Assembly (NCBI GenBank): GCA_030431335.1
Contig: JAUIJH010000032.1
Span: forward strand, 1-38,603
Origin: Alphaproteobacteria bacterium
GTDB lineage: Bacteria; Pseudomonadota; Alphaproteobacteria; Rhizobiales; Amorphaceae
DNA length: 38,603 nt
Direction: 5' to 3'
Notes under the pieces: model-generated
What the model was told of the DNA's origin: nothing
Seen by the model: the letters and a program-made list of their open reading frames with translations, nothing else
Database searches by the model: none
Made by a program: the position numbers and the translations under genes
Shown: piece by piece, positions 24,906-38,066 of the stretch
How positions within the stretch are numbered: position 1 is the first letter of the stretch
How the letters are laid out: every line of letters starts with the position of its first letter

Positions 24906-26468
24906 ATGCCGATGCCGACACGACGGACCTTCCTTGCGGGATCACTGACCATCGCAGCCAGCGCGTCCGCGCTCGGCGCGCAGGGCAGCGTGTCGCTCGA
25001 ACTGTCCCCGTCCGAGCCGTTCGACTTCGACCGGCTCGCAGAACGCGCGCGAGCGCTGGCCGCCGAGCCCTTCCAGCGGCCGCACATCGCGATGCGCGAG
25101 GCGCTGGAGGCGATCGACTACGATGCCCACTGGAAGATCCGCTTTCGCGAGGATGCCACCTTCACCCCGCCCGGCTCCGAGGCGCAGATCCAGCTCTTCT
25201 ATCCGGGCCGCTATTTCCCCGAACCCGTCGCCATCCACCTGGTGGAGGGCGGTTCGGCGCGGGAAATCGTCTTCTCCAACCGCTATTTCACCATGCCCGC
25301 CGACAGCCCCGCCCGCGTGCTCGGCAATTCGGCCGGCTTCGCGGGTTTCCGCGTCATGCGGCCGGGGCTCGGTCCGGACTGGGTGTCCTTCCTCGGCGCC
25401 TCCTATTTCCGCACCGACGGGCCGGCGCGTCAGTACGGGCTCTCGGCGCGGGGCCTTGCGCTCGACACCGGGCTCGGGCGGCCGGAGGAGTTTCCCCGCT
25501 TCAGCGCCTTCTGGCTCGCCGCCCCGCAGGAAGCCGGCGACGACCTGACCGTCTACGCCCTGCTCGAAGGGCCGTCGGTCGCCGGTGCCTACCGTTTCGG
25601 CCTCGCGCGCGGGCCGGATGGTGCCGGCCACGCCACCACGGTCGCCTCGCGCCTGTTCTTCCGCCAGACGCCGGAGCGGCTCGGCATCGCGCCGCTCACC
25701 AGCATGTACTGGTATTCCCAGAGCGACCGGCGCCACGCACGCGACTGGCGCCCCGAGATCCACGACAGCGACGGCCTCGCGCTGGAGACCGGGCGCGGCG
25801 AGCGGCTGTGGCGCCCGCTCAACAATCCGCCCGTGGTGCGCACCTCGAGCTTTGCCGACGACAATCCCAAGGGGTTCGGGCTGATCCAGCGCGACCGCGC
25901 CTTCGCCCACTACCAGGACGACGGCGTGTTCTACCACCGCCGGCCCTCCGCCTGGGTCGAGCCGCTGGGCGACTGGGGCCCCGGCGCGGTGCAGCTGATC
26001 GAGATCCCCGCGCATGACGAGACCTTCGACAACATCGTCGCCTACTGGATGCCGCGTGAGCTGCCCGCCGCCGGCGAGGAGCGCCGGTTCGACTATCGCA
26101 TCCACTGGGTGGAGCGCGATCCGGCGCCGGCCAAAGCCGCAACCGTGATGGCCACCTGGCAGGGCCAGGGCGGCATTCCCGGCCAGGACCTGCCCCAGGA
26201 CACGTACAAGATGGTGATCGATTTCGACGGCCCGGCGCTGGAGGGGCTCGAGACGAGCGACGGCGTAGAGCCGGTCGTCACCATCAACGGGGGCCGCATC
26301 GTCAGCGACATTGGCGCGCACCACATCGTGGGCGCGGCCGGCTGGCGCATGGTGTTCGACTATCAGATCGACGGCGACGGGCCGGCGGAGCTGCGCGGGT
26401 ATCTGCGCAAGGACGGCGAGGCGCTGACCGAGACGTGGACCGCGCAGTCCGACCCGGAGCGACGCTGA
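24906..26468 (+). CDS. opgD: Tat-exported periplasmic glucan protein, OpgD/MdoG family (GH186-type)
   Basis: This 520-residue periplasmic protein acts on osmoregulated periplasmic glucan. Residues 5-12 (TRRTFLAG) start a twin-arginine signal, which distinguishes OpgD-like proteins from the Sec-exported OpgG. The family core is evident: AIDYDAHWKIRFR, VEGGSAREIVFSNRYF, TSMYWYSQSDRR, DWRPEIHDSDGLALETG (HDSDG at 286-290), YQDDGVFYHRRPSAWVEP and FDNIVAYWMPR. E. coli OpgD was recently shown to be a beta-1,2-glucanase founding family GH186, and related proteins make alpha-1,6-cyclised beta-1,2-glucans. No OpgH-like synthase is adjacent. It is the first gene of a three-gene operon and shares one base of its stop with the next start. 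Confidence 0.93.
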   Translation: MPMPTRRTFLAGSLTIAASASALGAQGSVSLELSPSEPFDFDRLAERARALAAEPFQRPHIAMREALEAIDYDAHWKIRFREDATFTPPGSEAQIQLFYPGRYFPEPVAIHLVEGGSAREIVFSNRYFTMPADSPARVLGNSAGFAGFRVMRPGLGPDWVSFLGASYFRTDGPARQYGLSARGLALDTGLGRPEEFPRFSAFWLAAPQEAGDDLTVYALLEGPSVAGAYRFGLARGPDGAGHATTVASRLFFRQTPERLGIAPLTSMYWYSQSDRRHARDWRPEIHDSDGLALETGRGERLWRPLNNPPVVRTSSFADDNPKGFGLIQRDRAFAHYQDDGVFYHRRPSAWVEPLGDWGPGAVQLIEIPAHDETFDNIVAYWMPRELPAAGEERRFDYRIHWVERDPAPAKAATVMATWQGQGGIPGQDLPQDTYKMVIDFDGPALEGLETSDGVEPVVTINGGRIVSDIGAHHIVGAAGWRMVFDYQIDGDGPAELRGYLRKDGEALTETWTAQSDPERR

Positions 26469-27250
26469 TGCGCCCTTCCCCCGAAGCGATGGGCCGGTTC
26501 GAGGCGGAGCCGAACATCCTGCGAGGCAGCGCCGGGGCGATGCGCGTGCACCGCTACCGCCGGCACGCCGCCCCGGCGGGCACGGCCTTGGTGGCGCACG
26601 GGCGCAACGGTGCGGCCGACCAGCCGCACATGCTGCCGATCATCGACGCCTGCCTGGAGCGCTCGCTGGCCGTGGTGGCGCCGGACCTTTGCCATTCGAG
26701 CGCCAACGACAGCGACGGCGACAGCGCGGACTTCACCATCGCCGCACACCTCGAGGACGTGCGCACCGCGCTCGCCTTCGCGCGGGAGGCCGAGGCGCTC
26801 GCGCCGATGGCGCCGCTCCTCTTGATCGGCCACTCCATGGGAGCCTATGCGGCGGTGCGCCTCGCCGCGGAGGCCCCGGCGGGAACGATCGCCGGGGTGC
26901 TGGCCGTGTCGCCGGTGGTCTCCGGCCGCGCGCTGATCGCGGCGCGGCGTGCGATGGGGCCCGACGCGCTCGCCGCGCTGCGGGCCGAGTTGCCGGGCGC
27001 CCTCGCCGAGTGGCCGCAGCACGATCTGGCGCCGATCGCGGCCGGTCTCGCCGTGCCCTGCGCCATCGTCGTCGGCGCGGACGACACGCTGACCACTCCC
27101 GACGATGCCCAGGCCCTCGCCGCCCTCGTCGGCGCCAACTGCGTCTCGCTGGACGTGGTGCCGGGCGAGCACCACTGCCCGCTCGGCAAGGACTATGCAC
27201 GCAGCCTCGGCGCCGCGCTCGACCGCCTGCTCGCAGCGACGGAGGCCTGA
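26468..27250 (+). CDS. Alpha/beta hydrolase in the glucan operon
   Basis: This 260-residue cytoplasmic alpha/beta hydrolase begins at an ATG that shares its A with the opgD stop (TGATG). The nucleophile elbow GHSMG is at residues 121-125 (Ser123), the acid is Asp205 or Asp206 in VVGADDTLT, and the His is at 235-236 in PGEHHCPLG. HGRNGAADQ near residue 44 forms the oxyanion region. No signal peptide is seen. Esterases of this kind could remove succinyl, acetyl or phosphoglyceryl decorations that are common on periplasmic glucans; that role is inferred from the neighbours only. Confidence 0.88.
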   Translation: MRPSPEAMGRFEAEPNILRGSAGAMRVHRYRRHAAPAGTALVAHGRNGAADQPHMLPIIDACLERSLAVVAPDLCHSSANDSDGDSADFTIAAHLEDVRTALAFAREAEALAPMAPLLLIGHSMGAYAAVRLAAEAPAGTIAGVLAVSPVVSGRALIAARRAMGPDALAALRAELPGALAEWPQHDLAPIAAGLAVPCAIVVGADDTLTTPDDAQALAALVGANCVSLDVVPGEHHCPLGKDYARSLGAALDRLLAATEA

Positions 27251-27251
27251 C

Positions 27252-28529
27252 ATGGAGGCATGGCTCGCACAGCGCGAAAAAGCCTCCGCCGCCGCCATCG
27301 AGGCGGCCATCTCCGCGACGCACCTGTCGCACGAGCGGCCCGGTTTCGGCTACCGCGTCACCCCGGTCGCGGGCAGCGTGCTCGCCTCGCCCGTCTCGGC
27401 GCACTGGAACCCCGACCCGGACTATTTTTACCACTGGCTGCGCGATGCGGGGGTGGTGATGGCGACCGCGCCGCTGCTGCGCCATCGCGACGAGGCCGGC
27501 TGGCAGCGCCGCATGGAGGACTACGCCGCCTTCAGCCTCGCCATCGCGCGCCAACCGGGCCCGACCGCCAACCCGCAGAGCGCCAAGACCGCCGGCGACC
27601 ATCAGAAATTCCTGCGCGACGACGCCGAACTCGCCGCGCTGACCGGCGACGCGATCCTGGGGGAGCCGCGCGTCAATGCCGATGGCACGACCGATTTCGA
27701 GCGCTGGGGCCGCCCGCAATTCGACGGTCCGGCGCTACGGGCGCTCTCGCTCTTCGCCTGGGACGGGCCGGAGCCGGCGGCGATGCCCGCGCTGCTCGCG
27801 ATCGATCTGAACCACGCCCTCACCCATGCGGCCACCCCGTCGCTCGGGCCGTGGGAGGAGGAGCCGGAGGCGCTCTACGGCTTCACCCTCCTCGCCCAGC
27901 GCGCGGCGCTGCGGCGGGGGGCGGACCGCCTCCCCCAGGCGCCCCTCCTGGTGGCGTTCGCCAAGATCGAGGCGGCGCTCGAGGCGATGTGGTGCGAGCG
28001 CGAGGGGCACATGCGCGTCTCCAGCGCCGGGGCGCCGGGCGAAAGCGATGCGTCCATCGTGCTCGGCGCGCTGCTGGACCCCTCGGCGCCGACCTTCGGC
28101 GTCGACGATCCGCGCATCGTCGCGACGGTGAACCATATCGAGCGCTGGTCGCGCGAGCTCTTTCCCATCGCGACGGAGATGCACCCGCTGGTCGGGCGCT
28201 GGCCGGAGGATGTCTATTTCGGCGGCAATCCGTGGCTGCCCACCAGCCTGGGCTTCGCCGAATTCCACTTCCGCCGCGCCGCGACGGCGCCGGACGGGGA
28301 CCAGGCGGGGCGCGCGCTGGCACACGGCGAGGCCTACCTCGCGGCGATCGCCCGCATCCTGCCGGACGCCACCGCCTTCCTGCCCGAGCAGCTCGACCGC
28401 ACCACCGGCGCGCCGACCTCCTCGCGCAACCTCACCTGGAGCCACGCGGCGCTGATCGCGGCCGCCGAAGCCCGCCGCAAGGCCCTTACGCCAAAGGCAG
28501 CCGCGGGCTTGCAAAGCCGAGGCGAATGA
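27252..28529 (+). CDS. Glycoside hydrolase family 15 glucoamylase/glucodextranase-like
   Basis: This 425-residue inverting alpha-glucosidase consists of the (alpha/alpha)6 barrel alone. Landmarks in order: DPDYFYHWLRDAG (55-67), WGRPQFDGPALRA (152-164), the catalytic-acid motif GPWEEE (Glu202/203), YFGGNPWLPTS (322-332) and the catalytic base in LPEQ (Glu379). No signal peptide or starch-binding domain is present, so it is cytoplasmic. It starts one base after the hydrolase stop. GH15 members cleave alpha-1,4 or alpha-1,6 glucosidic bonds; in this cluster an alpha-1,6 bond of a cyclised periplasmic glucan is an attractive target, though glycogen or trehalose-type substrates remain possible. 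Its last 44 bases overlap the 3' end of the opposite-strand gene. Confidence 0.9.
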   Translation: MEAWLAQREKASAAAIEAAISATHLSHERPGFGYRVTPVAGSVLASPVSAHWNPDPDYFYHWLRDAGVVMATAPLLRHRDEAGWQRRMEDYAAFSLAIARQPGPTANPQSAKTAGDHQKFLRDDAELAALTGDAILGEPRVNADGTTDFERWGRPQFDGPALRALSLFAWDGPEPAAMPALLAIDLNHALTHAATPSLGPWEEEPEALYGFTLLAQRAALRRGADRLPQAPLLVAFAKIEAALEAMWCEREGHMRVSSAGAPGESDASIVLGALLDPSAPTFGVDDPRIVATVNHIERWSRELFPIATEMHPLVGRWPEDVYFGGNPWLPTSLGFAEFHFRRAATAPDGDQAGRALAHGEAYLAAIARILPDATAFLPEQLDRTTGAPTSSRNLTWSHAALIAAAEARRKALTPKAAAGLQSRGE

Positions 28530-29754
28530 GCCCGTCGCGCACCTCCGGCGCGCGCATCAACAGGTCCCACACGAGCCCCGTGCGGTGGTTTTCGATCATC
28601 ACCACGATGGGCGCCTGATCGATGGCGAGGGTGCCCGGCGCGACCCAGCCCGTCCCCGGATGGAAGGCGTCCACCAGCCCGAACGGCCCCCACAGCGCTT
28701 CGCCCCGCTCGTCGACGAAGTGGCGCAGCGCCATCATCGCGGCCTGCGGCAAATAAGGCAGCGAGGCGACCGCCGCCGTCGGCGTGATCACGCCGAGATC
28801 GTTGGTTGGCGAGTGGGCCGCGTAACCGTCCGGGCTGTCGCTGGCGGTGAGCCCCCAGCAGGCCGGCCCGTAACCGGCGTGGCCATGGGGGTTGGCGACA
28901 CAGTGCGCCCGGTTGATCGCGGCGTGCGCGCGCACCTCCTCGCCATAGTCGGCATAGCGGTCGACGAGCCCGCGCGGGTCGAGCCCGAGGAAGGAATAGT
29001 GCGCCAGGAACAGCGGGCCGCCCATCTCCGGGCCGAGCGGCAGGCGGATATCGTAGTAGGTGGCGCCGTTGATGAACTGATCGGCCCCCGCCCAGCAGCG
29101 GTGATAGATTTCCGGCGCGATGGCGCGCTCCCCCGCCCCGGCCGCCAGCACGTAGGTGATGAGGCATTCGTTCCAGCCGCGGATGGGCAGGCTCGTCGGC
29201 GTCCACGGGTGGGTGGCGCTGCGGTGCCACATCAACATGCCGTCGCTCTGGCGCACGTGAGCCGACCAACGCGCCTCCCGCCACAACAGGTTCACCGCAT
29301 CGGCAATATCCGCCCGCTCGGGAAACGCTTCACGCGCGGCAAGGAGACCCGCGAGCAGGAACGCGGTCTCGGGCAGGTCGCCGCCGTCGTCCTTGGGCGA
29401 AAACGGGATCGTGGCGCCGCTTTCGCCGTCCATGAAGTGGGCGAAGATGCCTTGGTGTCGCTGCGCCCGCGCCAGGAAGCCGGCGATCCGGGCGATGCGG
29501 TCCGCGACGGCCGCGCGGGGCAGCCACTCGCGCGCGGCGCCCACCAGCAGCGCCATCACGCCGAAGCCGGTGCCCCCGGCGGTGACGACGCGCGCCACAT
29601 CGTAGCCGAAGGCGCCGGCGCTGCGCTCGCGCGCCATGCCGCTCACCGGGTGCGCATGGTCCCAGAAATAGGCGAGCGCGGCGCGGCTCACGGCGTCCAG
29701 CAGCGCATCGTCGGAGAGCCCCTTGGGGGGGCGGCCCGGATTTAGAACTGCCAT
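28486..29754 (-). CDS. PF10091 glycoamylase-like / GH144-type beta-1,2-glucanase candidate
   Basis: This 422-residue (alpha/alpha)6-barrel protein has no signal peptide. It resembles the PF10091 group, which contains GH144 endo-beta-1,2-glucanases and the middle region of cyclic beta-1,2-glucan synthases. Motifs are AYFWDHAHPVSGM (29-40), DDGGDLPETAFLLAGLL (122-138), IRGWNECLITYVLAA (191-205, with the conserved WNE Glu196), YSFLGLDPRG, and GYGPACWGLTASDSPDGY. Bacteroidetes GH144 enzymes are exported, so a cytoplasmic location is notable. The start overlaps the GH3 stop by 13 bases, giving translational coupling. The likely product is sophorose or short beta-1,2-glucans for the GH3 enzyme. Specificity is inferred. 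Confidence 0.87.
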   Translation of the reverse strand: MAVLNPGRPPKGLSDDALLDAVSRAALAYFWDHAHPVSGMARERSAGAFGYDVARVVTAGGTGFGVMALLVGAAREWLPRAAVADRIARIAGFLARAQRHQGIFAHFMDGESGATIPFSPKDDGGDLPETAFLLAGLLAAREAFPERADIADAVNLLWREARWSAHVRQSDGMLMWHRSATHPWTPTSLPIRGWNECLITYVLAAGAGERAIAPEIYHRCWAGADQFINGATYYDIRLPLGPEMGGPLFLAHYSFLGLDPRGLVDRYADYGEEVRAHAAINRAHCVANPHGHAGYGPACWGLTASDSPDGYAAHSPTNDLGVITPTAAVASLPYLPQAAMMALRHFVDERGEALWGPFGLVDAFHPGTGWVAPGTLAIDQAPIVVMIENHRTGLVWDLLMRAPEVRDGLIRLGFASPRLPLA

Positions 29755-32006
29755 GTGATCTCAACGCTTTGCAGCGCCCGCGCATCCGGGCCGGTCGCGA
29801 GCACGAAGGTGCCCGGATCGGCCACCCGCTCGAGCGTCTCGAGGCTGTCGCCCATCACATAGGCGAGGTCCGACAGGGTGAGCGTGAAGACGATCTCGCG
29901 GCACTCGCCGGGCTCGAGCACCACCTTTTCGAAGCCCTTCAGCTCGCGCATGGGGCGGGTGATGCGGGCGACCGGATCGCGCACGTAGAGCTGCGCGACG
30001 GTGGTGCCGCGGCGCGCGCCGACATTTTGCACGCTCACGCGCACCACGGCCCGCGCGTCGGCGCCGGACAGGGCGGTCTCGTCCACGCGCGGGGCCGCGT
30101 AGGCGAACCGGGTGTAGGAGAGGCCGAAGCCGAACGGGAACAGGCCGGTGGCCGGGGGCACGGTGTCGGGCAGGTCGAGATAGCCGGTCTTAAACTTCTC
30201 GAAGCGGCCCGAATAGGGCCGGCCCGTGGGTTCGGCCGCGTGGAACACCGGCACCTGCCCGGTGCGGGCGGGAAAGCTCATGGCGAGCCGGCCGGCGGGA
30301 TCGGCCACCCCGGTGAGGACGTCGGCGATGCCGTTGCCCGCCTCGGTGCCGGCAAACCAGACGAGGAGCACCGCATCGGCGAGCGCCACCTCCTCGGCGA
30401 GCGCCAACGGGCGGCCGGTCTTGACCACCAGCACCAGCGGCGTGCCGGTCTCGGCCAGCGCCTCGAGGAGGCGGCGCTGCGGCGCGGGCAGGCCGATCTC
30501 GGTGCGGGAGGAGGACTCGCCCGAATATTCCTTCGCCTCCCCCACCACCACGACGGCGACGTCCGCGCTCCGTGCCGCCGCGACGGCCTCGGCGATCATC
30601 GCCTCCGCCGGGCGCTCGTCCAGGAAAACGGTCTGGCCGTGCACGTTGAGCCGGCCCGCGAGGACGGTATCGTCGACGAGATCGGCGCCCTTGACGCAGC
30701 ACACCTCGCCCCCGTGCAGCGCCACGAGGCCCTCGCGCAGCGTCACCGCCTGCGCCGGATCGCCCGAGACGGCCCAGGTACCCAGGAGGTTGGTGCGGTC
30801 GTCCGCCATCGCGCCGATCAGCGCGACGCACGCGCCCGGCGCGAGCGGCAAGGCACCCTCGTTCTTGAGGAGCACCGTACTCTCGGCGATCGAGCGGCGC
30901 GCCAGGGCGCGGTGGTCCGCCGAGAGCGCCGTCCTGGCGGCGCGCGCCTCGTCGCAATAGCGGAACGGGTCGTCGAACAGGCCGAGCCGGTACTTCAGCG
31001 CGAGGACGCGCGCGCACGCCTCCTCGATGGCGGCCACGATCTCGCCGGCTTCAATGGCAAGGCCCGATTCGGGCCGCGCAAGCCCCTCCTCGGCGAGGCG
31101 CGGCAGGTGGGTCACATAGTCCTCGCCGATCATGTCCATGTCGATGCCGGCAATCAGCGCGAGCGCGGCGGCGGTGGCGCGGTCGCCGAGGCCGTGCGCG
31201 CTGATTTCGGCAATGCCCGTATAGTCGGCGACCATCAGGCCGGCGAAACCCGCGTCGCCGCGCAGCCAACCGCGGATCAGCGCCCGGTGCGCGTGCATCG
31301 GCCGCTTGTTCACCGCGTTGAAGGAGGCCATGACGCTGCCCGCCCCCGCCGCGACGCCGGCGCGGAAGGGCTCGGCATAGACGCCGATCAGCTCTTCGAG
31401 GCCGAGGCTCGCATTGTCGTAGTCGCGTCCGCCCACGGCCGCGCCATAGGCGAGGAAGTGCTTGAGGCAGGCGACGACCGTGTCGGGCGCGAGCGGGTCG
31501 GTGCCCTCCAGCCCGGCCACCATCGCCTCGGCGTAACGGGCGGCGAGGAAGGGATCCTCCCCCGGGCTCTCAGCGACGCGGCCCCAGCGCGCGTCCCGCG
31601 CCACGTCCACCATCGGCGCATAGACGTGGTTGATGCCCTCCGCCGCCGCCTCGCGGGCCGAAACGCGCGCCACATCGCGCCACAGCGCCGGATCGAACGC
31701 ACCCGCGAGCGCGATGGGCAGCGGAAAGATGGTGCGGTGGCCGTGGATCACGTCCTCGGCAAAGAAGAGCGGGATCGCGTGCCGCGATCCGGAGAGCGCC
31801 AGTTCCTGCCAAGCCCGCACCGAACGCACGGACTTGGTGCCGAAGATCGCCCCGAGCTGGCCGGCCTCCAGCCGCGACCGAATGTTGCGCACGCCGGCGC
31901 TGCCCGTCTCGGGTCCCTCCCCGGCGCTGAGGAGATTGAATTGTCCGATCTTCTCGGCCAGCGTCATCCGCCCCATCAGGGCGGAGACAAAGGAGGTCTC
32001 ATCCAT
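29742..32006 (-). CDS. Glycoside hydrolase family 3 beta-glucosidase
   Basis: This 754-residue retaining beta-glucosidase has no signal peptide and is predicted to be cytoplasmic. The N-terminal TIM barrel shows AEDVIHGHRTIFPLPI (83-98), DARWGRVAESPGEDPF, CLKHFLAYG (180-188) and the nucleophile region GLMVADYTGIAEI (Asp261). The alpha/beta sandwich domain carries the region of the acid-base Glu (GEAKEYSGESSSRTEIGLP), and a C-terminal fibronectin-III-like domain ends at residue 754. The layout matches BglX-type GH3 enzymes of about 750 residues. The gene starts nine bases after the transporter stop and ends inside the start of the PF10091 gene, so the three are one operon. Linear beta-1,2-gluco-oligosaccharides are the inferred substrate. 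Confidence 0.94.
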   Translation of the reverse strand: MDETSFVSALMGRMTLAEKIGQFNLLSAGEGPETGSAGVRNIRSRLEAGQLGAIFGTKSVRSVRAWQELALSGSRHAIPLFFAEDVIHGHRTIFPLPIALAGAFDPALWRDVARVSAREAAAEGINHVYAPMVDVARDARWGRVAESPGEDPFLAARYAEAMVAGLEGTDPLAPDTVVACLKHFLAYGAAVGGRDYDNASLGLEELIGVYAEPFRAGVAAGAGSVMASFNAVNKRPMHAHRALIRGWLRGDAGFAGLMVADYTGIAEISAHGLGDRATAAALALIAGIDMDMIGEDYVTHLPRLAEEGLARPESGLAIEAGEIVAAIEEACARVLALKYRLGLFDDPFRYCDEARAARTALSADHRALARRSIAESTVLLKNEGALPLAPGACVALIGAMADDRTNLLGTWAVSGDPAQAVTLREGLVALHGGEVCCVKGADLVDDTVLAGRLNVHGQTVFLDERPAEAMIAEAVAAARSADVAVVVVGEAKEYSGESSSRTEIGLPAPQRRLLEALAETGTPLVLVVKTGRPLALAEEVALADAVLLVWFAGTEAGNGIADVLTGVADPAGRLAMSFPARTGQVPVFHAAEPTGRPYSGRFEKFKTGYLDLPDTVPPATGLFPFGFGLSYTRFAYAAPRVDETALSGADARAVVRVSVQNVGARRGTTVAQLYVRDPVARITRPMRELKGFEKVVLEPGECREIVFTLTLSDLAYVMGDSLETLERVADPGTFVLATGPDARALQSVEITWQF

Positions 32007-32015
32007 TTCGATGCC

Positions 32016-34229
32016 TTATTCGGCGGCGAGCGGCAGCGCTTTGCCCGGCACCGTTAGGCCAACGAGCTCGGCTTTTCCATCCTGGATGTAGATGAGGCTG
32101 TCGTAGAACGGGCGGCCCGTCGGGCTTACCGGCGGCTCCGGCTCGTGCATGATCGAGATGACGATCGCGCGCGGACAGCGCTCCTTGATGAGACGGTGGA
32201 ATTCCAGCACCGCGCCCGGATCGAGCGCCGAGCAGGCTTCGTCGAGCAACAGCACGTCGGGCCGTTGCAAGACGATGCGCGCCAGCACCAGGCGCTGGCG
32301 CTGGCCGCCGGAGAAGACGCTGTTCCAAGGCTTGCCGTGGTGCAGCGCATCGCCCATGTCGCGGATGAACTTGCCCAGCCCCACTTCGGCGAGCGCGGCG
32401 GCCACCTCGACGTCGCCATAGCGTTCGCCGAAGTGCGGATAGGCGACGAGCTCCTTGAGGGTCAGGCGCGGCGGCAGGTCGGGATCCTGGCCGGCGAAGA
32501 ACATCGCCGCGCCCGTGGGTTGCACGATGTCGCCCGAGCCGTACGGCCACAGCCCGGCGATCGCCTTGAGGAGACTGCTCTTGCCCGCCCCGTTCTGACC
32601 GCGCACATAGGCCCACTGCCCGGCGCGCAGCGACAGCTTCGACACGGTGAGGAAGGGGGCCGTATCGTGGCCACGGTGGCGCAGCGCGACGTCGCGCAGC
32701 GTCAGCCCGAAGCGCGGATCCTGGGTCAGGTGCCGGAAATCGTGGACGCCGGTCTTCGTGTAGAGCGCCCGCTGGTCGTTGGCGAGCTCGACCGCCTCCG
32801 CCACCTCGTTGAGGCGGCGAGAATTGGCCTTCAAGGTGGCGATGGCAGGCATCACCTGGATGAACCACGAGCAGTCGTTGATGAGCTCCGCCGCCAGCTC
32901 GGAGGTGGCCGAGTAGGTGCGGAAGGTCATCGAGCCGGCGAGGTAGGCCGGCAGCGCCGGCATATAGGACACGAGCCGCCGCGACAGGAAGTTGTAGCCG
33001 TCGGTGAACACCTGGAAGGCGGCCGTGGTCATGTTCATGCGGTGCCAGATGCGGTCGATGGCGCGGTAGAGCTTGCCGTTGGTGCGGGCCTGCACATGCT
33101 GGCCGCCGGAGATGGCGATCTGCGAGGAGCGCGTCAGCATGTCGTTCATCTCGCCGCGCCAGGTGCCGTCGCGGGCCTGCCGCTCCAGCGTCTGGCGTTC
33201 CAGCACGCGCCCCAGCAGCCAGGCGAGCCCGGTGCCGACCGGCACGTAGACGACGATGAGGAGCGCCACCAGCAGCGCCGAGCCGTATTCGCCCGGCGTG
33301 AAGGCCAGCGCCTCGCCCACGCGCGGCCCGAAGACGCGGCCCATGAAGGCGCTCCCCTGCGCGAACCAGCGCTCCAGGAACGCGACCTCGACGGACCGCG
33401 CGATGATCGCCACCGAGATGAAATAGATCGAGGCGATCGATCCCCAGACGCCCATGGCGAGCCCGATCAGGCCCGCGAACAGGCTCTCGGTGCACTCGTC
33501 GATGCGCTGGTCGACATTGTCGGGCATGCGCCCGGCGGCGCCCGGACCGGCATCGCGGTTGCTCATCAGGCTCATGGCGATGTGGTTCTGCCCCAGCACC
33601 GCGGCGTTGAACTGGCTCTGCGTCCAGCCGCGCACCTTGCGATGCAGCGTGGTGGAGCAGAAATGGCGCACGCCGATGCCGCCGATCCGGCCGAGGTGAA
33701 TGGCGCCGAACGCCGCAACGGACGTCAGCAGCACCGCGACGGGGTCGAGCCCTTCGGGCGGCGAATGGAAGCGCACGATAGAGTTGAGGAAGTCGGCGCT
33801 GGCCGTCGCCGCCCACACGCTCGACTTGGACAGCAGCGTGGTGAGCGCGAAAATGCCGATGGTGAGCGACCAAGCCTCGACCCAGCGCTCCGACGTCCAA
33901 TAGGACAGCAGCAAGCCCCAGAACCCGCGCATGCGCGACGTCGGCGTCGCGCCGGGGCGAACCAGCGGCATGCGCAAGCGCGGATGATCGAGGCCGGCAC
34001 GCACGCTCGCCCAACCGCCCGTGAGCCCATCGCGGCCCTGCCAGCCGAGCAAGGTTTTCAGCACCGCCCCGATCTCGATTGCCCCGTGCCCGATAAAGGC
34101 AACGAAGCCCGGCGGAGCAATCAACGGGGCGCTCCGCAGCAACAGCACCGCGGCTGCGGCACTGATCAAGGCAAAAACCGTCCTCTCGCCGCGACCCATG
34201 CGGGTGCGGTCGAACGCGATACCAACCAT
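32016..34229 (-). CDS. ABC transporter with fused membrane and ATPase domains (ABC_membrane_2/SbmA-ABCD type)
   Basis: This 737-residue inner-membrane half-transporter works as a homodimer. Several hydrophobic segments occupy residues 18-420, and a cytosolic ATPase domain follows. The membrane domain resembles the ABC_membrane_2 group (SbmA/BacA, Rv1819c, ABCD): GWTQSQFNAAVLGQNHIAMS, NVDQRIDECTESLF and SWFIQVMPAIATLKANSRRL. Walker A GQNGAGKSS starts at 544, the signature FSGGQRQRL at about 639, Walker B VLLLDE at 659-664 and the switch His at 695. I use the ATG at 34229; GTG at 34238 is an alternative adding three residues. Group members mostly import hydrophilic peptides, cobalamin or antibiotics, so uptake of periplasmic glucan fragments is plausible; export cannot be excluded. 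Confidence 0.9.
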   Translation of the reverse strand: MVGIAFDRTRMGRGERTVFALISAAAAVLLLRSAPLIAPPGFVAFIGHGAIEIGAVLKTLLGWQGRDGLTGGWASVRAGLDHPRLRMPLVRPGATPTSRMRGFWGLLLSYWTSERWVEAWSLTIGIFALTTLLSKSSVWAATASADFLNSIVRFHSPPEGLDPVAVLLTSVAAFGAIHLGRIGGIGVRHFCSTTLHRKVRGWTQSQFNAAVLGQNHIAMSLMSNRDAGPGAAGRMPDNVDQRIDECTESLFAGLIGLAMGVWGSIASIYFISVAIIARSVEVAFLERWFAQGSAFMGRVFGPRVGEALAFTPGEYGSALLVALLIVVYVPVGTGLAWLLGRVLERQTLERQARDGTWRGEMNDMLTRSSQIAISGGQHVQARTNGKLYRAIDRIWHRMNMTTAAFQVFTDGYNFLSRRLVSYMPALPAYLAGSMTFRTYSATSELAAELINDCSWFIQVMPAIATLKANSRRLNEVAEAVELANDQRALYTKTGVHDFRHLTQDPRFGLTLRDVALRHRGHDTAPFLTVSKLSLRAGQWAYVRGQNGAGKSSLLKAIAGLWPYGSGDIVQPTGAAMFFAGQDPDLPPRLTLKELVAYPHFGERYGDVEVAAALAEVGLGKFIRDMGDALHHGKPWNSVFSGGQRQRLVLARIVLQRPDVLLLDEACSALDPGAVLEFHRLIKERCPRAIVISIMHEPEPPVSPTGRPFYDSLIYIQDGKAELVGLTVPGKALPLAAE

Positions 34230-36495: not shown

Positions 36496-37317
36496 TCAGC
36501 CGGCGAACAGGACGTAGGCGGCGGCGCCCAACAGCACGACCCCCACCGCCTGCGCCACCCGGTTGCCGAACGGCAGCAGCTTCTCCGCCAGGACCAGGAT
36601 CGACAGCCCCGCGATCCAGACCGCATTCATGGTGCCGCCAACGAAGAGCAGCGCCATCAGCACCCAGCAGCAGCCGAGGCAGTAGGCGCCGTGGCCCAAC
36701 CCCATGCGCACGGCGCCGCGCCGCCAGTGGTCCGCCAGGTACTGCGCCGGCGCGCGGCAGTGCTGCAGGCAAATGTGCTTCCACGGCGATAGCTGATAGA
36801 GGCCTGCCGCCGCCAGCAGCCCCGCGGACAGGGCGCGGCTGCTGCTCCACATCGCCATGCCGTGCACCAGGCCGGCCCGCTCCAGCCCCCATTGGGCAAG
36901 CACCGCAACGGCGCTGAAACCCGCCCACGCGGCGAGATAGCCGAGGAAGAACCACACGGTGGGGATCGGCGCCGCCGCCATGCGGCCCTTGCGCTGCGCG
37001 TGGCGGCTCACGCGCGCATGCAACAGCACCATCGGCGCGGCGCTGGGCGTCATCATGGCGATCATCATGATCCACCACATGAAGAACATCAGGGCCCAGT
37101 AGCCGCCGCTCCACTCCATCGCCATCGCGGGGCGCATGGGCGGCGGAAAGGACCAGGTGGTCATCGCGGCGATGCTCATGCCGGTGCCCGCCCCGCTCAT
37201 CAGGTACAGCCAGCTCAGCACCGTCAGCGCGCCGAGGCCGAGCGCCGTGATCAGCCGCTCGCGCGACAGCCCCGCCTCGATCGCGCGGGAAAGGGCGCCG
37301 GTCAGCCCCTCGCCCAT
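36496..37317 (-). CDS. DUF2182 Cys/Met-rich membrane protein
   Basis: This 273-residue inner-membrane protein has about seven hydrophobic segments. The first half is exceptionally Met- and Trp-rich (MFFMWWIMMIAMMTPSAAPM, about residues 77-96). Two Cys motifs define the family: SPWKHICLQHCRAP (177-190) and GAYCLGCCWVLM (210-221). These look like soft-metal (for example copper) ligands in the membrane, but the function of DUF2182 is not established. The ATG at 37317 follows the DUF1326 stop by seven bases, so the two proteins are made together. The pairing with DUF1326 is the main clue to function. Confidence 0.9.
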   Translation of the reverse strand: MGEGLTGALSRAIEAGLSRERLITALGLGALTVLSWLYLMSGAGTGMSIAAMTTWSFPPPMRPAMAMEWSGGYWALMFFMWWIMMIAMMTPSAAPMVLLHARVSRHAQRKGRMAAAPIPTVWFFLGYLAAWAGFSAVAVLAQWGLERAGLVHGMAMWSSSRALSAGLLAAAGLYQLSPWKHICLQHCRAPAQYLADHWRRGAVRMGLGHGAYCLGCCWVLMALLFVGGTMNAVWIAGLSILVLAEKLLPFGNRVAQAVGVVLLGAAAYVLFAG

Positions 37318-37324
37318 CGCCCGT

Positions 37325-38002
37325 TCACGATGCCATGGCGGCCGCCATCGCCGCGTCCGTCTCCTCGGCGATGATGCCGTAAGGGCCGTAGGCGGCGTAA
37401 AACAGCGCGCCGTAGCGTTTGCCGCGATCCATTTCCAGGCCGTCCCCCTTGGACACGAAGCGCGCGCTCGCCATCTCGGCGGTGCGGAACTCGAAGCCGT
37501 GGGGCAGCACGATCTGCGCGAAATGGTCGAGCCCGGTGACCGGGTTCTTGATCGGCTCCAGCGCGAACTCCACCACGCCGTCGACGACGAAGCGGCCGCG
37601 CCGGGCAGGCATGTCGCACTCGAACACGATGTCGGCGAAGATGGGGTCGAGCTCGGTCTCGATGGTGGAGGCGTAGATGTTGAACAGCGTGGTGGGCTCC
37701 TGTTCCTCGCCGGACAGGATCTTGAACAGCGCGTCCACCTGCTCGGGGGTCGCGTTCTTGTCGACGAAACCCTGGGCGGTGCCGCCGCCCTCGTGCACGG
37801 CGCCCGGCCAGCGGAAGCGCGCGCCGACCTTGAGCCCGTCGAGGCGGACGTCGCCGAAATAGCCCTCCTCGATCAGCATCGCCTCGGCGCCCTCGCACAA
37901 ATTGCCGAGCGTCGGCCGCGCGTTGAACTCGCAGGGGCACCCATAATCGCAGCTACAGCCGCCGATCTTCGGGCCTTTGATCTTCCAGTCGACGTAAGTC
38001 AT
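37325..38002 (-). CDS. DUF1326 cysteine-rich soluble protein
   Basis: This 225-residue soluble protein has no signal peptide. Its N-terminus carries GGCSCDYGCPCEFNARP (Cys16, Cys18, Cys22, Cys24) with a further Cys36, then a beta-rich body containing GVVEFALEPIKNPVTGLDHF and a C-terminus YAAYGPYGIIAEE. The CxCxxxCxC cluster suggests metal binding. The ATG at 38002 is preceded by GGAGGCC; a longer in-frame ATG at 38065 adds 21 residues that do not look coding. It is the first gene of a two-gene operon with DUF2182. No function is established; a soft-metal carrier or chaperone partnering the membrane protein is a reasonable hypothesis. Confidence 0.88.
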   Translation of the reverse strand: MTYVDWKIKGPKIGGCSCDYGCPCEFNARPTLGNLCEGAEAMLIEEGYFGDVRLDGLKVGARFRWPGAVHEGGGTAQGFVDKNATPEQVDALFKILSGEEQEPTTLFNIYASTIETELDPIFADIVFECDMPARRGRFVVDGVVEFALEPIKNPVTGLDHFAQIVLPHGFEFRTAEMASARFVSKGDGLEMDRGKRYGALFYAAYGPYGIIAEETDAAMAAAMAS

Positions 38003-38066
38003 CGCCGGCCTCCGTTGAGCGGGACACGGCACAATACTACCGAAAACACGCGGCGCGGGCCACAAC

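Follow-up and report, generated by a model that had tools for sequence, protein, structure and literature searches.

A six-gene alphaproteobacterial cassette predicted to degrade beta-1,2-glucan and to recycle the cell's own ring-shaped periplasmic glucan

The stretch of DNA analysed here (the window: 38,603 nucleotides, contig JAUIJH010000032.1 of assembly GCA_030431335.1, from an alphaproteobacterium of the Amorphaceae) carries six adjacent genes that a first-pass annotation, made from the sequence alone, had proposed as a salvage pathway for periplasmic glucan. They form two facing groups, OpgD-hydrolase-GH15 on the plus strand and ABC-GH3-GH144 on the minus strand, the latter reading toward GH15. 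We find that the set is very likely a conserved cassette for the breakdown of beta-1,2-glucan, and it would likely recycle the cell's own ring glucan. The genes are as follows.

24906-26468, plus strand: OpgD-like GH186 protein of the MdoG family (Pfam MdoG, 599.9 bits)
26468-27250, plus strand: alpha/beta hydrolase, possibly an esterase for glucan substituents (Pfam Hydrolase_4, 48.4 bits)
27252-28529, plus strand: GH15 protein, a short glucoamylase-like form of 425 amino acids (Pfam Glyco_hydro_15, PF00723, 95.3 bits)
28486-29754, minus strand: GH144 protein, by family a beta-1,2-glucanase (Pfam Glycoamylase, PF10091, 230.5 bits)
29742-32006, minus strand: GH3 beta-glucosidase, BglX-like (Pfam GH3 N, 191.3 bits, and C, 164.8 bits)
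32016-34229 (or to 34238, a GTG start being possible), minus strand: Rv1819c/YddA-like ABC transporter (ABC_tran 73.8 bits, ABC_membrane_2 27.8 bits)

The cluster was found as the first-pass annotation had described it, with all six genes in place, Pfam agreeing on every family and the coordinates confirming the short or overlapping junctions. OpgD and hydrolase have one base in common (TGATG), a single base separates hydrolase from GH15, the overlaps amount to 44 bases for GH15 and GH144 (tail to tail) and 13 bases for GH144 and GH3, and 9 bases lie between GH3 and the ABC gene.

The best solved relative of the GH144 protein is 4gl3, named putative glucoamylase (465 bits), followed by 5gzh, CpSGL (385 bits). 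All six key residues of CpSGL listed in PMC12102758 (D135, D139, E142, E211, F268 and Y330) are kept in the window's protein when the 5gzh alignment is read by eye, and by family function it likely cuts the beta-1,2 bond. The GH3 protein scores 678.9 bits against the NCBIfam model BglX PRK15098 (cut-off 666), with 3u48 (642 bits) and 5xxl, named Periplasmic beta-glucosidase (617 bits), as solved relatives.

A six-row GH15 alignment was searched against 397 genomes of the order, and the cassette GH15 clade was present in 24 of them, from 10 of 141 genera. Within about 10 kb around the gene, GH144 occurred in 19 and GH3 in 22 of these 24 genomes; the five without a nearby GH144 belong to one genus, in which GH144 stands elsewhere, beside an ABC gene in all five loci. 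The 40 remaining GH15 genes in these 24 genomes served as a control: none lay within 10 kb of a PF10091 match (the nearest at 22 kb), as against 19 of 24 for the cassette clade, with the caveat that some of the 40 are on short draft contigs that may end before a neighbour. On the strength of this control a chance grouping was rejected.

A scan of named genomes with a 13-row GH15 alignment yielded 402 confirmed relatives. The best 80 were kept, so that the counts apply to the closer members of the family; all query rows came from cassette loci, and the clade searched is thus the cassette clade. The loci derive from Acuticoccus, Paracoccus, Rhodovulum, Tropicimonas, Thermohalobaculum, Limibaculum, Rhodomicrobium, Bosea, Methylocapsa, Variovorax, Nevskia, Hydrocarboniphaga and others, and Paracoccus, Rhodovulum and their kin supply many with the gene arrangement of the window. 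Within 10 kb of GH15, GH144 was found in 78 loci, GH3 in 70 and an ABC gene in 72. Co-occurrence in relatives, put forward with the first-pass annotation as a check, is therefore widespread, with all three partners in 68 of the 80. Other neighbours were the hydrolase (24), MdoG (12), OpgH (9) and the phosphorylase SOGP (3). Flanks are incomplete in 23 loci shorter than 21.1 kb; in the 57 with full flanks the corresponding counts were 57 for GH144, 53 for GH3, 53 for ABC and 51 for all three. Since GH15 alone was used to fetch the loci, their selection does not presuppose these neighbours. The numbers should nevertheless be read with some caution: the threshold of E 1e-15 for ABC matches may have let in other ABC ATPases, for which a domain scan of the rows serves as a check, and some loci duplicate genomes (L012 and L075 are one genome, and the same holds for other G-handle and named loci). 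Among the loci, frames split in two pieces by a frameshift or assembly error were seen in L041 and L044 (SOGP), L056 (GH3) and L047 (GH144). In the genus of L063, a locus without the GH15 clade, two other genomes have GH15.

Two sets of neighbours bear on the substrate. First, genes of glucan synthesis adjoin the cassette in some relatives. In Thermohalobaculum xanthum and Limibaculum sediminis (L076, L077) OpgD-hydrolase-GH15 faces GH144-GH3-ABC and MdoG-OpgH follows (two proteins of the Thermohalobaculum locus were verified by Pfam), and in Mangrovicoccus, Tropicimonas and others OpgH-MdoG lies on the opposite side of the cassette. Irrespective of position, MdoG was found in 24 of 24 GH15-cassette genomes versus 14 of 35 without the GH15 clade, the latter including small, incomplete genomes and one, G031, with a weak partial GH15 match (E 1.4e-4). 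As genomes within a genus are not independent of one another, the count was also made by genus (10 of 10 versus 9 of 29; one-sided Fisher 1.5e-4). PF10091 proteins of CGS size (frames of about 2,800-2,900 residues, read from their size as another kind of ring synthase) showed no link, being present in 2 of 24 cassette genomes and 4 of 35 others. As a separate observation, G031 (L064) has two distant GH144-like genes and a CGS-size PF10091 protein elsewhere, in a genome without an MdoG match.

Secondly, Rhodomicrobium-type genomes show the order SOGP-GH15-GH144-ABC with GH3 diverging, and the SOGP of one such locus (L014) carries beta-1,2-oligoglucan phosphorylase domains. An XFP (phosphoketolase-family) gene also follows GH3 in this type of cassette (L014, 16094-18547; L040, L041, L042). 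On a Methylosinus plasmid, ABC-GH15 faces SOGP, and the gene table, which is incomplete and covers the plasmid only, lists neither GH144 nor GH3 within 8 kb. Because of the key residues of GH144, the SOGP and opgG-opgH neighbours and the co-occurrence with MdoG, the beta-1,2-glucan substrate of the first-pass annotation is supported.

The MdoG domain of the window's OpgD spans the whole protein (PF04349, 599.9 bits, profile positions 1-477 of 478), and a twin-arginine leader at its start, MPMPTRRTFLAGS, recognized by eye, agrees with the Tat signal claimed earlier. Its best solved relative is 8x18, XccOpgD (410 bits), followed by E. coli OpgG (342 bits) and E. coli OpgD (325 and 323 bits). The catalytic pair is kept, with Asp375 and Asp287 aligning with D379 and D291 of XccOpgD (the general acid and base Asp), and so are D342, D343 and E376. 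The positions W76, D343 and R477 of XccOpgD correspond to Tyr72, Asp339 and His472; of the residues that jointly mark GH186 clade 3 (W76 or Tyr, D343 and R477) the protein lacks the last, where His472 replaces Arg, and it was not assigned to that clade. Tyr at W76 occurs in some members of the ring-closing clade (PMC11228985). At the R477 position, other Acuticoccus loci have Trp (L010, L012, L013), Tyr (L066) or Arg (L065), and L076 and L077 have Arg. Among 33 aligned MdoG proteins (frames of 400 residues or fewer excluded), D343 was kept in 12 of 18 not beside OpgH versus 2 of 15 beside OpgH. A plain E. coli-type hydrolase was rejected as a candidate: loop A is without the GW motif and the protein is closer to XccOpgD, the enzyme that makes the alpha-1,6 bond of the ring (PMC11228985). 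OpgD had been cast as a processor of glucan in the periplasm; being nearer to ring-closing XccOpgD than to the hydrolase EcOpgD, it is more likely a ring maker. Ring closure is probably its function.

The genome of the window is a draft of 5.6 Mb in 285 contigs. Its OpgD is a second, separate member of the MdoG family, because another MdoG gene sits on contig C167 with an OpgH-like glycosyltransferase gene directly after it; the OpgH name comes from gene order and from likeness to an L076 protein carrying GT2-type domains. Among eight genomes of the genus, at least one MdoG was found in seven, an OpgD-like MdoG in six and a GH15 gene in five. The ring glucans of Ralstonia, Xanthomonas and Cereibacter sphaeroides, the last a relative of the Paracoccus and Rhodovulum kin, are closed by one alpha-1,6 bond (PMC11842490).

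In the GH15 protein the catalytic residues Glu202 and Glu379 are invariant in 42 of 42 rows. Its structure model (predicted local distance difference test, pLDDT, 96.2) is an (alpha/alpha)6 barrel with 3eqa as first PDB match, and the order of matches runs from fungal glucoamylases through isomaltose glucohydrolase (5z3a and kin), ahead of bacterial glucoamylase 1lf6. The family takes in isomaltose glucohydrolase and glucodextranase, and its hydrolases attack the non-reducing terminal alpha bond (PMC12446779). The earlier proposal that GH15 opens the ring at its alpha-1,6 bond was therefore rejected: an exo family acting at non-reducing ends cannot open a ring, and the endo enzyme GH144 must cut first. 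In the Xanthomonas work (PMC11228985) the beta-glucosidase BtBGL by itself did not act on the ring, and the next lane combined it with CpSGL, of GH144. GH15 would be needed because a beta-glucosidase would stop at the alpha-1,6 bond, and removal of alpha-1,6-linked glucose is a plausible role for it. Four further GH15 genes occur in the window's genome (G000, contigs C73, C133, C182 and C280), none on the contig of GH144.

Where these enzymes act is suggested by their N-termini. In a simple hydropathy test, which misses the leader of the window's own OpgD, no clear hydrophobic leader shows in the window's GH15, GH144, GH3 or hydrolase. Across relatives matching at more than 90 bits, and counting from the nearest start, a leader-like stretch was seen in 0 of 78 GH144, 0 of 71 GH3, 6 of 81 GH15, 2 of 25 hydrolase and 9 of 18 MdoG proteins, the last showing that real leaders are missed; with any nearby start the same sets gave 0, 1, 18, 3 and 10. 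For the glycosidases, which the first-pass annotation held to lack signal peptides, none is visible by hydropathy, a weak test that overlooks even the OpgD leader; the data only suggest cytoplasmic enzymes. As to the hydrolase, relatives lie in the 24 loci counted above, and in Beta- and Gammaproteobacteria-type loci an S15-type alpha/beta hydrolase takes its place (23 of 80). Since ring glucans frequently bear succinyl or acetyl groups (PMC11842490), an esterase role on glucan substituents seems reasonable. The S15-type hydrolase at L125 (13095-15377) has a leader-like start by eye.

The ABC protein fuses permease and ATPase in one chain. Of the relatives counted above, 70 of 72 were scanned with the window's protein (71 rows; the short fragments L127 and L132 dropped), and at E 0.001 ABC_membrane_2 matched 59 rows, SbmA_BacA 45 and ABC_tran 70, some of them below the Pfam cut-off. 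Among solved structures, 6tqe (Rv1819c) matched the 71-row profile best, at 350 bits, the next reaching 294. A structure model of middling quality, built on an alignment of the window's protein with 24 close relatives, again had 6tqe first in Foldseek, and in VIA-align 2 several ABC proteins tied, importers and exporters alike. A 2026 paper describes the YddA family as full-length ABC transporters to which no function has been assigned, and Rv1819c as a transporter of cobalamin (PMC13316013). From its conserved company, import of glucan is the predicted and likely role of the window's ABC protein.

We hypothesize that the cassette recycles the cell's own ring-shaped osmoregulated periplasmic glucan, with the ABC protein importing it, GH144 opening it and GH3 and GH15 degrading it to glucose, and we hold this full scheme to be somewhat better than an even bet. 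According to our hypothesis OpgG and OpgH, whose genes were found elsewhere in the genome and whose function is taken from their families, would make linear beta-1,2-glucan in the periplasm, where OpgD, by likeness to XccOpgD, would close it into a ring through one alpha-1,6 bond. The alpha/beta hydrolase might strip ester substituents such as succinyl or acetyl, and the Rv1819c/YddA-like protein would import the ring, or large pieces of it, without a binding protein. In the cytoplasm GH144 would cut a beta-1,2 bond, as its family function and key residues predict, and GH3 would then work inward from the non-reducing end, releasing beta-1,2-linked glucose, until the alpha-linked unit blocks it; GH15 would take that unit off and GH3 resume. 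In some relatives SOGP may join or replace the hydrolytic steps. A bolder generalization is that many Alpha-, Beta- and Gammaproteobacteria dedicate such a system to their own rings, that the Rv1819c/YddA-like protein imports the whole ring and that the GH15 clade evolved for the single blocking alpha bond; to this we would give a chance just short of even.

Several findings weigh against recycling of the cell's own ring. A tryptophan in the helix 3-4 loop goes with alpha-1,4 specificity in GH15 (PMC12446779). All 42 of 42 GH15 rows keep Trp152, in the WxRPQ motif, as glucoamylases do, and this residue is probably of that alpha-1,4 kind; a tryptophan of the alpha-1,6 type, the mark of isomaltose glucohydrolase and glucodextranase, was not located. 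With His in place of R477, the OpgD of the window may differ in ring size or in ring closure itself, and the MdoG proteins of Paracoccus-like loci (L080, L083, L088, L091, L101 and L105) are without D343 and not of the ring-closing type. MdoG and OpgH adjoin GH15 in only 12 and 9 of the best 80 loci, and the complete six-gene order is present in only two of the eight genomes of the genus (the window's and G006), and one genome has OpgD without GH15. Genome G013 (L063) has GH144, GH3 and the ABC gene without the GH15 clade, the ABC_membrane_2 score of the window's transporter is barely above the Pfam cut-off (27.8 versus 24.4 bits), and several copies of the cassette are on plasmids, which fits feeding on foreign glucan too.

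That last point leads to the strongest of the alternatives, in which the cassette feeds on beta-1,2-glucans from other bacteria and its proximity to opg genes is secondary. The cassette GH15 clade is carried on eight plasmid records, and in the four inspected (Paracoccus alcaliphilus, Methylosinus, Methylocystis rosea and Paracoccaceae La 6; L155-L158) cassette neighbours are present. On pLA6_008 one block holds mdoG, the hydrolase, GH15 (annotated oligosaccharide amylase) and bglX, with hypothetical proteins in the places of GH144 and the ABC gene; the public annotation of two plasmid copies consists mostly of family names or 'hypothetical protein'. SOGP, which adjoins some GH15 genes, was first found in Listeria innocua with a catabolic cluster (PMC11842490, PMC12369401), and most of the best 80 loci have no adjoining opg genes. 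Yet MdoG is present in all 24 GH15-cassette genomes examined and opgG-opgH adjoin the cassette in several genera, and no recurrent outer-membrane receptor or binding protein was recognized by eye among the 25 largest groups of neighbours, which are mostly reverse-strand shadow frames. We consider foreign feeding unlikely, at something under one chance in four.

A second alternative is that GH144, GH3 and GH15 degrade glucan while the ABC protein does another job, either peptide or antibiotic uptake in the manner of SbmA and BclA, or export. Where the cargo of its relatives is known, it is peptides, cobalamin or acyl-CoA, and sequence cannot tell the direction of transport, nor do the tied fold matches. 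Against this, the ABC relative keeps its place in 72 of 80 GH15 loci of several architectures, it stands beside GH15 on the Methylosinus plasmid, where the annotation within 8 kb shows SOGP and neither GH144 nor GH3, and leaderless glycosidases require an importer, so that such a divided cassette appears improbable. Metabolism of alpha-glucan (glycogen or maltodextrin), with GH15 a glucoamylase and GH144 a misnamed one, was rejected as very improbable, for the GH15 fold, an invariant Trp that is probably alpha-1,4-type, the PF10091 name Putative glucoamylase and the GH13 enzymes in 6 of 80 loci are countered by all six CpSGL residues in GH144, by none of 40 other GH15 genes near GH144 in the same genomes and by the SOGP neighbours.

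The synthesis of osmoregulated periplasmic glucan is well studied, and its disposal or the recovery of its glucose was not described in the literature searched, which consisted mostly of titles and abstract openings with few subscription journals; nor was any mention seen there of a salvage cassette with GH15, GH144 and ABC genes or of a YddA-like importer for periplasmic glucan. The cassette supplies a candidate enzyme for every step of recycling, by which an osmoprotective glucan could return to glucose when osmolarity rises. An orphan ABC group (YddA, with no known role) would gain a predicted, testable cargo, and the GH15 clade becomes a candidate enzyme for cleaving the alpha-1,6 linkage in cyclised beta-1,2-glucan.

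Elsewhere in the window, adjacent minus-strand genes at 36496-37317 and 37325-38065 encode PpoB2 (Pfam: Copper chaperone) and DUF1326 proteins, an unexplained pair.

Compared with known systems, the window's OpgD shares with XccOpgD, the GH186 synthase of alpha-1,6-cyclised beta-1,2-glucohexadecaose (PMC11228985), the catalytic Asp pair and a short loop A without the GW motif, and differs in having His for R477 and Tyr for W76. The GH144 protein matches CpSGL of Chitinophaga, the founding enzyme of its family, in the same six key residues, and the available text of PMC12102758 makes no tie between CpSGL and GH15 or an Rv1819c-like ABC protein. With Rv1819c, YddA and BclA (PMC13316013) the ABC protein shares the permease-ATPase fusion, 6tqe being its best profile and Foldseek match; identity to them is only about 20% and their cargo is cobalamin or peptides, the word glucan being absent from the main text of PMC13316013 and of PMC12003926. 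In Caulobacter, a periplasmic glucan linked to OpgH has been connected with BglX and an esterase, EstG (PMC11389396, in the part available), without GH144, GH15 or an importer; the window's GH3 has no visible export leader. The beta-1,2-glucan clusters of Listeria innocua and Streptomyces griseus likewise combine a GH3 or GH1 beta-glucosidase with an ABC transporter for beta-1,2-oligosaccharides; unlike the cassette described here, they use a binding-protein-dependent importer and, as far as the available text of PMC12369401 goes, involve no GH15 (0 occurrences) and no OpgD.

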